Source: Armatimonadota bacterium (GTDB lineage: Bacteria > Armatimonadota > Fimbriimonadia > Fimbriimonadales > Fimbriimonadaceae). From it: a stretch of DNA of 64,000 nucleotides. Both the position numbers and the translations under genes were made by a program. Where the stretch lies: assembly GCA_029781035.1 (NCBI GenBank), contig JAKOXK010000017.1, positions 62,001-126,000 on the forward strand. Direction: 5' to 3'. The notes under the pieces are model-generated. The model worked only from the letters and a program-made list of their open reading frames with translations. It was not told the origin of the DNA and did no database searches. Below, one piece after another: positions 56,023 through 58,861 of the stretch. How positions within the stretch are numbered: the stretch's first letter is position 1; every line of letters begins with the position of its first letter.

Positions 56023-56977
56023 GGAGAGTCGAGGAATCCGAACGTTCGCTAGCTTGACGGCGGGCCTGTTTCTTCTCAGGATCCTCCTCGGGCTGACTCT
56101 TCTTCCCCCGGGAGTCGCCATGGTGGCCAGTTGGATCGCCACTGCAGTCTTCGTTGGGACGCCCATTGTCGGTCTGTTCTTCGCGTCGCGGTACGGATGG
56201 AGTCCCAAGTCGGCGGCCTTGCCGCTTGTGGTTGGGGCCGCGATCCACGCGGGATGCGCGCTCCTTGCCCGTGCCTTGCCCCAAGTTGGGCTCGAGTCGG
56301 TCGTTGTGCAGGCCGTCGAGCAGATCGGCATTGCCCTTTGGACGCTCGGCCTTGGCGCCCTCGTGGCGACCGTGATTCGCGACAAGAACCTCCTTGTCCC
56401 CGTTGCCCTGTTCTTGGCTGGCCTGGACGTCTTTCTCGTGTTCAATCCTGAGGCCCCGACGGCGAAACTCCTCCGTCAAAATCCCGAGATCTTCCGCTCG
56501 ATGGCGGTCACTGTGCCCTCGGCCCGGGCTGCGGAGCCAGGCAAACCGACGGGAGCGGCTGTTGTCAGCCAAGCCTTCGTTGGCCCGGCCGACCTACTCT
56601 TCATGGCAACGTTCTTCGTCGCCCTCTCTAAGTTCAACATGCGCAGCAAGGAGACGGCCCGCTGGCTGGCTCCTGTCATGATCGGTTATCTCTTGGTCGT
56701 GTTAGCGCCCTGGGGCCTCAATATGCTGCCAGCACTGCTACCGATCGGTGCTACCGTGCTCATCGTCAACCGGAAAGAGTTTGAATTGACGCGCCAGGAA
56801 AAGGGAATGGCTTGGGCCGTGGCCGCCATCGCGGTCGGAATCGGGGGTTTTGGCATTTACCGACACGTCACCTACAAGCCAGCAGGGCCAGCTGAGCCTT
56901 CGACGACGGTGGACGGCCCAGGGCCTCCAAGACGGGGAGCGACGCCTCCGCCAGCTTCAGACGGTCGATCCCAGTGA
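56015..56977 (+). CDS. Integral membrane protein of unknown function
   Basis: TTG at 56015 with GGAGG nine bases upstream gives 320 residues overlapping the glycosyltransferase stop by 8 bp. About seven to eight hydrophobic helices follow (TAGLFLLRILLGLTLLPPGV, WIATAVFVGTPIVGLFF, AALPLVVGAAIHAGCALLA, IALWTLGLGALVATVI, LLVPVALFLAGLDVFLVF, LLFMATFFVALSKF, WLAPVMIGYLLVVLAPWG, MAWAVAAIAVGIGGFGIY). The tail after ~residue 285 (PAGPAEPSTTVDGPGPP ...) is Pro-rich and lies antisense to the end of the HMG-CoA lyase gene. No family recognised. Confidence 0.75.
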   Translation: MSEESRGIRTFASLTAGLFLLRILLGLTLLPPGVAMVASWIATAVFVGTPIVGLFFASRYGWSPKSAALPLVVGAAIHAGCALLARALPQVGLESVVVQAVEQIGIALWTLGLGALVATVIRDKNLLVPVALFLAGLDVFLVFNPEAPTAKLLRQNPEIFRSMAVTVPSARAAEPGKPTGAAVVSQAFVGPADLLFMATFFVALSKFNMRSKETARWLAPVMIGYLLVVLAPWGLNMLPALLPIGATVLIVNRKEFELTRQEKGMAWAVAAIAVGIGGFGIYRHVTYKPAGPAEPSTTVDGPGPPRRGATPPPASDGRSQ

Positions 56978-57749
56978 CCTCGCCTTCCCGTTCGAGGAGA
57001 TAGGCCAGGTCGTCAGTCGCCAGGTTGCCGCCCGCCCCTGGTGCGTATGGACAGCCCCCTAGGCCACCCGCGCTGGAGTCGAAAGCGCGATACCCAAGGT
57101 CCAGGGCCGCTTGGACGTTGGCGAGCGCGGTCCCTCTTGTGTCGTGGAAGTGCCAGGCGATTCGCGAATAGGGCACGTCCAACACCGATGCCAGCCGACG
57201 GACTTCGGGCGGCGTCGCAACCCCTATCGTGTCGCCAAGGGAGACCTCGTCCACACCCAGGGCGATGAGGTGTGCGACCACCTGCGACGTCGTCCCTGGA
57301 TCGACCGGGCCTGCATAGGGGCATTCGAAGGCAGTGCTCACGTAACCTCGGACCCAGCCATCGGTGACCAGCCCCCGAAAGGCCGACACGACCTCTGCGA
57401 ATGCAGCCAGTGAATCAGACACTGTCATATTGATGTTCTTGAGGGTGAAGGCGTCACTGGCGGCAGTGAATACCGCGATCCGCTTGACCCCAAGTGCGAC
57501 GGCCCTCTGGAGCCCCGTTGTGTTCGGAACAAGAGCTGAATACTCGGGCCCAGCCGGCAACATCGGCCACAGACGGTCAGCGTCTCCTAACTGTGGCACC
57601 CACTTGGGGGACACGAAACTGGTGACTTCGATCTCGCGCAGACCAGCATCCGACAGTCGCGCGACAAACTCGGCCTTGGAGTCCGTTGAAAGGGGTGGCT
57701 TCTCGTTTTGAAGGCCGTCCCGGGGCCCGACCTCAACGATCCGCACCAT
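56868..57749 (-). CDS. mvaB: Hydroxymethylglutaryl-CoA lyase family protein
   Basis: 293 residues: VRIVEVGPRDGLQNEKPPLS (metal Asp and catalytic Arg in PRDG), ALVPNTTGLQRAVALGVKRI, FTAASDAF, YVSTAFECPYAGPVDP (with catalytic Cys), EVSLGDTIGVATP, WHFHDTRGTALANVQAALDLG and FDSSAGGLGGCPYAPGAGGNLATDDL with the signature Cys. It cleaves HMG-CoA to acetyl-CoA and acetoacetate in leucine breakdown. The terminal 110 bp overlap the convergent membrane-protein gene. There is no Shine-Dalgarno, and a terminator stands 30 bp upstream, so it likely has its own promoter. Confidence 0.93.
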   Translation of the reverse strand: MVRIVEVGPRDGLQNEKPPLSTDSKAEFVARLSDAGLREIEVTSFVSPKWVPQLGDADRLWPMLPAGPEYSALVPNTTGLQRAVALGVKRIAVFTAASDAFTLKNINMTVSDSLAAFAEVVSAFRGLVTDGWVRGYVSTAFECPYAGPVDPGTTSQVVAHLIALGVDEVSLGDTIGVATPPEVRRLASVLDVPYSRIAWHFHDTRGTALANVQAALDLGYRAFDSSAGGLGGCPYAPGAGGNLATDDLAYLLEREGEVTGIDRLKLAEASLPVLEALGRPPSSKAQLALLACR

Positions 57750-57779
57750 GGTGCGATTCTGGCACGACTGGGGCGGGAC

Positions 57780-57806
57780 AAAAAAAAGCCCCGCTTTTGC
57801 GGGGCT
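57780..57806 (-). terminator. Canonical intrinsic terminator of the candidate ncRNA / upstream operon
   Basis: On the minus strand, AGCCCCGC pairs with GCGGGGCT across an AAAA loop, followed by a run of eight T. It ends 30 bp before the HMG-CoA lyase ATG. Confidence 0.95.
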
Positions 57807-57959
57807 AGCACTTTCATCTCTTTCAGGGAAGATCCCTTACTGACGCCGCGTTATTCGCGACCGCCGTAGGGCTCGCTCTTGCTGTCGCTAAGCCTTGCCG
57901 GTTGCCCTCGTCGGATCTACCTGTCCCGTAGGTTGACCCTCCGTACCAACAATAGCTAG
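57780..57959 (-). ncRNA. Candidate structured ncRNA or leader RNA, unidentified class
   Basis: About 180 nt between an AT-rich promoter-like region and a perfect terminator. Base-paired elements nest cleanly: P1 57955-57959/57805-57809 (CTAGC/GCTAG), P2 57935-57942/57827-57834 (GGAGGGTC/GATCTTCC), P3 57928-57931/57917-57920, P4 57909-57912/57842-57845 (GACG/CGTC), inside it P5 57904-57908/57868-57872 (AGGGC/GCCCT) and P6 57856-57859/57847-57850 (CGCG-AATAA-CGCG). That is a branched fold with a multiloop, not a simple rod, and no open frame of note. It does not match tmRNA, SRP RNA, RNase P or 6S RNA in the features I know. It could also be a riboswitch-like leader for the HMG-CoA lyase. Confidence 0.55.
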
Positions 57960-57973
57960 GTATTCATAATACC
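57959..57973 (-). promoter_or_regulatory. Palindromic -10 region for the candidate ncRNA
   Basis: GGTATTATGAATACC (minus strand) is an inverted repeat with 6-bp arms and contains TATTAT at a -10 distance from the proposed RNA start. The surrounding 57961-58030 is markedly AT-rich. No good -35 hexamer is present at 17 bp, so an activator or alternative sigma factor may be needed. Confidence 0.4.
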
Positions 57974-58038
57974 ACAGGGGTAGCAATTAATATAGACAAA
58001 TCTATTCGATTTTGATCTGACCGACTTTTGTCTACTAC

Positions 58039-58428
58039 TTATTCGCGGCTCTCGATCTGAACCAGGTATGTGACGACAGCTCCGTCAACGACGGCTAGGA
58101 AGACACCGTCGAAGCCAGACTGCGTCCGATGGAACGTGTGGAACGCGTGCGAGGCGGATCCCGTGAGTTGTGCCCACAAGTTCGCCAAGTCGATCTGGAC
58201 GAGTTCCGGCAGCCTCTTGGCTAGGGAGAACTGACCCCGGATTTCGACCATCGGGTGGTTCCTGGGCGTCACGTTGGATCGAGTCAAGGTCAGATAGTGG
58301 AGGCGCCTCAGCGACTCAAGCATCTTGTTCAGCGCGTCACCGCGCTGCCACTGGTCGGCAAGGCTGAACGCTGCCAGGTGCGTCTGGTAGAGCTTCTGGA
58401 ATTCCAGGACGGTGCATGCGTTACTCAT
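58039..58428 (-). CDS. Conserved-looking protein of unknown function
   Basis: The ATG at 58428 overlaps the biotin-carrier gene by 8 bp. 129 residues: an N-terminal helical part (CTVLEFQKLYQTHLAAFSLADQWQRGDALNKMLESLRRLHYLTL) and a C-terminal strand-rich part (NHPMVEIRGQFSLAKRLPEL, GFDGVFLAVVDGAVVTYLVQI). No signal peptide or motif is recognised. As the last gene of the E2-amidotransferase-biotin carrier operon it may assist a carboxylase, but nothing in the sequence says so directly. Confidence 0.7.
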   Translation of the reverse strand: MSNACTVLEFQKLYQTHLAAFSLADQWQRGDALNKMLESLRRLHYLTLTRSNVTPRNHPMVEIRGQFSLAKRLPELVQIDLANLWAQLTGSASHAFHTFHRTQSGFDGVFLAVVDGAVVTYLVQIESRE

Positions 58429-58861
58429 CGACCAGCTCGACGGAGACCAGTAACTGATCCTCGCCGACTTGGTCACCCTTGTGGACGGCCACTTGGCTCA
58501 CGACTCCGGCAAAAGGTGCCGTGACCGTGTGTTGCATTTTCATGGCCTCGAGAACGAGGAGTTTCTGGCCCGAATGGACTTGATACCCTTGTTCCACAAA
58601 CACCTCTACGATCTGCCCTGGCATTGGTGCGTGACATTCGCCGGTGCCATGGTGTTTGAGTCGGGAACGGCTCCTCGTGGGACGCTCCACTTCGAAAACC
58701 CGGCCCTTGTACGAGACGTAGACGGTATCGCCCTTGCGGACAGCCAAGGCGGTCGCTGTCCCATCCTCAGAGTGGACTGCCCATCGGTCTCCAAGGTCGT
58801 CGACCCGAACCGCGGAACTTGGAGACAAGTCGGCCTCAACGCCGTTCACCAGGTACCGCAT
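58421..58861 (-). CDS. Biotin/lipoyl attachment protein (acyl-CoA carboxylase carrier-like)
   Basis: GGAGAG nine bases before the ATG at 58861 sets the start; 146 residues. The N-terminal half is a beta-rich linker region (MRYLVNGVEADLSPSS). The C-terminal half is a biotinyl domain with HAPMPGQIVEVFVEQGYQV and the biotinylation motif EAMKM, then VTAPFAGVVSQVAVHKGD. This resembles the carrier end of propionyl- or methylcrotonyl-CoA carboxylase alpha chains made as a separate small protein. It begins inside the amidotransferase gene. HMG-CoA lyase nearby hints at leucine catabolism, though the carboxylase subunits are not in this window. Confidence 0.9.
   Translation of the reverse strand: MRYLVNGVEADLSPSSAVRVDDLGDRWAVHSEDGTATALAVRKGDTVYVSYKGRVFEVERPTRSRSRLKHHGTGECHAPMPGQIVEVFVEQGYQVHSGQKLLVLEAMKMQHTVTAPFAGVVSQVAVHKGDQVGEDQLLVSVELVDE

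Follow-up and report, generated by a model that had tools for sequence, protein, structure and literature searches.

Does the interval of about 180 nt on the minus strand directly upstream of an HMG-CoA lyase gene specify an RNA of its own, or is it the leader of the lyase transcript? The question arises in a 64,000-nt stretch of DNA from an Armatimonadota bacterium of the Fimbriimonadaceae (hereafter the window). The original prediction had placed there a structured RNA with an AT-rich -10 element and an intrinsic terminator. This RNA was thought to act either independently or as a leader whose P1 helix touches the terminator and might thereby switch expression of the lyase. The RNA gene is located inside the cluster PuuD, biotin carrier, 145-aa protein and HMG-CoA lyase, and the relevant features are the following:

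58039-58476, minus strand: protein of 145 aa between the biotin carrier gene and the RNA, without a Pfam match
57966..57974, minus strand: AT-rich extended -10 promoter element TGGTATTAT, with a predicted start near 57959
57780..57959, minus strand: small structured RNA of about 180 nt, found in five genomes by BLAST and covariance model and in a sixth (G013) by covariance model
57888..57958, minus strand: 5' domain, a local P1 (UAGC/GCUUA and GUUGGU/ACCGGC) around a variable hairpin
57872..57888, minus strand: conserved linker GCGACAGCAAGAGCGAG, near-identical across the four genomes of the genus, with AGCAAGAG retained in a second genus (g8)
57834..57871, minus strand: P3/P4 hairpin (CCCUAC/GUAAGGG and GGCG/CGUC), with changes on both sides at three to four pairs
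57816..57833, minus strand: P5 hairpin AUCUU-CCCUGAAA-GAGAU, invariant in five genomes
57808..57836, minus strand: 29-nt invariant block GGGATCTTCCCTGAAAGAGATGAAAGTGC, identical in five genomes
57780..57806, minus strand: intrinsic terminator read from the sequence, an 8-bp GC-rich stem followed by T8
57756..57761, minus strand: CAGAAT, probable leaderless -10 element of the HMG-CoA lyase gene, 6 nt before the ATG
56868..57749, minus strand: HMG-CoA lyase-like protein (PF00682)

Relatives encode proteins similar to the 145-aa protein in the equivalent position, and an open reading frame of 129-160 aa precedes the RNA in G000, G001, G002 and G010, the genomes for which reading frames were listed.

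Pattern scans and the fold of a single sequence are insufficient by themselves to establish the RNA. In the neighbourhood of the locus, a terminator scan found five terminators against 4.8 expected and a promoter scan found none, and the fold of this one interval shows no more than moderate stability (z -2.2, or -1.0 once the terminator is removed). For the homologous sequences, z-scores ranged between -1.7 and -3.6 when the terminator was included and between -0.6 and -3.1 when it was left out, values that cannot be added up as independent evidence because the homologues are related. It is conservation that lifts the RNA above chance: the BLAST matches, the 29-nt block and the compensatory changes in P3/P4.

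Conservation of the RNA and its invariant block

The genus of the window genome (g1) is represented by G000, G001, G002 and G003; further carriers or candidate carriers belong to the genera g8 (G010), g11 (G013 and G090) and g25 (G027). By BLAST, the RNA is present in G001, G002 and G003, the three remaining members of the genus, and also in G010 from a second genus. With the window genome this makes five carriers, and in each of them the RNA lies just upstream of the HMG-CoA lyase gene on the same strand. One further BLAST match, in G057, is weak (E 8.9e-4), spans 26 bases and looks unrelated. A covariance model (R1) built without G013, G090 and G027 found a diverged copy in G013, which represents a third genus, with an E-value of 2.6e-5 over loci and of 3.8e-4 in a whole-genome search. 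Upstream of the lyase gene in G013, G090 and G027, we found diverged candidates that each possess a -10-like element, hairpins and a terminator. The evidence for the weaker candidate in G027 consists of its position, its architecture and GGAUGAAAGUG, and its score with model R3 is not independent because G027 belongs to the training set of that model; for the weaker candidate in G090, the second g11 genome, it consists of position and architecture.

Many other genera of the Fimbriimonadaceae carry the lyase gene closely behind its upstream gene, without such an RNA. Other weak covariance-model matches occur in other genera and families; among those listed, none has a similar promoter, terminator or block. 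We treated the weak matches in the order and the phylum as chance, since the listed ones lack the features of the RNA and most of them fall into open frames. A weak second match in the window genome itself lies inside a coding frame and was rejected. The HMG-CoA lyase tree was too poorly resolved to tell whether the carriers form one clade. Collectively, the small RNA gene is real and previously uncatalogued, and it occurs in a few related Fimbriimonadaceae; the structured minus-strand RNA of the original prediction is thus borne out by conservation and covariation.

Even with up to three mismatches allowed, the 29-nt block has no match in the order's 108 other genomes. Of the contigs in GTDB r220, only three, all from Armatimonadota, contain a 20-mer taken from the block, and IMG/VR has none; both searches may have left out entries for the genome that the window comes from or for genomes very close to it. 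A search for complementary targets with a 19-nt query revealed no recurrent site. Separately, CAGAAAGAGATGAAAGTGC, one mismatch away from the block, is present in an intergenic position beside an enolase gene in G010 (G010:C1:251121-251139, minus strand; L140). This site scores 16 bits with R3, no terminator was seen after it, and it could possibly be a relic or a second copy.

An invariant block might also reflect a short peptide or upstream open reading frame (MKV...) instead of a functional RNA, as the block holds an ATG (GAGATGAAAGTG) that opens a frame in G000, G001, G002 and G003. Yet this frame reads on across the terminator, is closed after 14 codons in G010, and has no ATG in G013. 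Furthermore, every codon position is invariant, and inspection of the sequence revealed no properly spaced Shine-Dalgarno motif. The ATG of the block consequently lacks a conserved frame, and a coding role, which we rejected by inspection, is extremely improbable.

Secondary structure and covariation

When P1, P3/P4 and P5 were imposed on an alignment of five sequences, 90% of the cells were paired, five pairs had changed on both sides, and none of 500 shuffles reached the covariation score of the structure; the alignment and the structure were fitted by hand to the same five related sequences, a small set, which favours both. P3/P4 contributes most of the covariation, likewise with seven sequences, and 94-95% of its cells are paired, compared with about 33-57% when the whole structure is slid by one to three columns. 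In P1, paired changes with different letters restore the local helix in other homologues, as judged by inspection, with G010 being misaligned there. Most homologues adopt two-domain folds. Compensatory changes are present in P3/P4. P5, by comparison, does not vary among the five close genomes and can provide no covariation evidence there; in the diverged G013 and G027, inspection found that the changes mostly preserve its stem (AUCCU/AGGAU in G027).

The helix set of the original prediction also included a 5'-3' closing helix that reaches into the base of the terminator. This helix lacks covariation, and with 72% of the cells paired it performs no better than shuffles. On the comparative sequence evidence, the 5' strand pairs locally instead, as the P1 that closes the 5' domain, and not with the terminator base.

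Transcription of the RNA and of the HMG-CoA lyase gene

The AT-rich -10 element and the terminator seen in the window recur at the equivalent place in the carriers. A TGN motif with a -10-like hexamer precedes the RNA at the equivalent position, most clearly in g1, g8 and g11, and is displaced by a base or two in g25; every carrier has a terminator, and its stem differs in sequence among them. This arrangement suggests that the small RNA is probably transcribed on its own.

What stands beyond the terminator bears on the role of the RNA. In G000, G001, G002, G003, G010 and G013, and hence in six of the eight carriers, the lyase gene possesses a -10 element of its own (CAGAAT, CACAAT, TAGAAT or TAGGGT) 5-7 nt before its start. 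We assessed such leaderless elements with simple open reading frame calls on about 0.35 Mb of G000 that take in the window. Both TANNNT (42 vs 14.7 expected) and CANAAT (8 vs 1.3 expected) are enriched 5-7 nt before start codons, which suggests that leaderless genes may be widespread in G000. This leaderless -10 arrangement has been demonstrated experimentally in Deinococcus (PMC12340547). Shine-Dalgarno-like motifs are infrequent in the same 0.35 Mb of G000. In G090, a possible -10 element is found 9 nt before the lyase start. The HMG-CoA lyase gene is thus probably transcribed from a promoter of its own that lies past the terminator of the RNA.

The presence of this element in six of eight carriers makes it improbable that the RNA is the lyase leader in these genomes. 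A cis-acting leader, either a riboswitch or a protein-responsive attenuator, would hold a core that senses a ligand and chooses between termination and read-through. The RNA is always found directly upstream of the lyase gene on the same strand, as such a leader would be, and its conserved core abuts the terminator. The lyase gene of G027, moreover, has a Shine-Dalgarno-like GGGAGGG before its GTG and, past the terminator, nothing that clearly resembles a -10 element; without a visible promoter of its own, it may need read-through, and a leader role is possible there. Set against this are not only the leaderless elements of the other carriers but also the many genera of the family in which the lyase gene directly follows its upstream gene without such an RNA, the lack of covariation in the proposed pairing between P1 and the terminator, and the failure to see a consistent antiterminator upon inspection by eye. 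We therefore regard a leader function as a rather unlikely explanation of the RNA, and as less likely still the more specific proposal that termination ahead of the lyase gene of Fimbriimonadaceae is controlled by a new ligand- or protein-responsive RNA class whose binding core would be the 29-nt block. The original prediction had left open whether the RNA is independent or a leader; its first option is the better supported one, while the switch of lyase expression through a terminator-touching P1 finds no support in the form in which it was drawn, given the absent covariation and the lyase gene's own -10 element.

Relation to known RNA families and a model for the small RNA

The Rfam scan proposed as a check gave no match at the gathering score within the interval (Rfam 15), and relaxed thresholds brought up nothing above chance, the best weak match reaching 20.1 bits where the cut-off is 95. 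SRP RNA and RNase P RNA were considered and rejected, as both were found elsewhere in the genome. The expectation that the RNA fits no housekeeping class consequently held. Our literature searches found nothing on the RNA at 57959-57780, and one full-text search of a paper library retrieved no paper devoted to small RNAs of Armatimonadota.

6S RNA deserves separate consideration. It is recognised in several genomes of the sister families f2, f3 and f5 and in none of the 25 sampled Fimbriimonadaceae (f1), which a model built for the order's own 6S RNAs also misses, save for a weak match in G015; in this family, 6S RNA has been either lost or strongly diverged. With its length of about 180 nt and its probable independent transcription, the RNA described here could in principle be this diverged 6S RNA (RF00013), acting on RNA polymerase. 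However, it has neither the 5'-3' closing stem nor the rod-like fold with a central bubble, and neither RF00013 nor the order's own model matches anywhere in the window genome. Its restriction to a few genera is likewise at odds with a 6S RNA, which should be general in the family. An identity with 6S RNA is very unlikely.

Among the remaining systems, riboswitch and attenuator leaders are like the RNA in that an intrinsic terminator follows a conserved, structured core ahead of a metabolic gene, but here the gene downstream seems to be served by a leaderless promoter of its own, and no alternative helix is supported. Generic intergenic small RNAs resemble it in size, in having their own promoter-like and terminator sequences, and in a conserved segment adjoining the terminator; it differs from them in that no sequence or structure match exists in Rfam. 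The RNA forms a new family within a kind already known, the bacterial small RNAs.

We favour, as the probable explanation, that the interval constitutes an independent gene, encoding a structured small non-coding RNA of about 180 nt that acts in trans. RNA polymerase would start at the extended -10 element near 57959 and stop at the terminator at 57780. A variable scaffold, formed by the P3/P4 hairpin together with the P1 domain at the 5' end, would then present to a conserved partner a near-invariant 3' module made up of the P5 hairpin and the single-stranded GAAAGUGC. This partner, through which the presumed action in trans would be exerted, is probably either a protein or another RNA that is likewise conserved. 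The HMG-CoA lyase gene would be transcribed thereafter from its own leaderless promoter just past the terminator.

Armatimonadota seem to have yielded few described small RNAs so far. The strikingly invariant core of this RNA, its narrow distribution and its fixed genomic place together make its origin and its partner amenable to testing. It also provides an example of a small RNA gene embedded in a gene cluster in which the gene downstream of it seems to depend on leaderless transcription.
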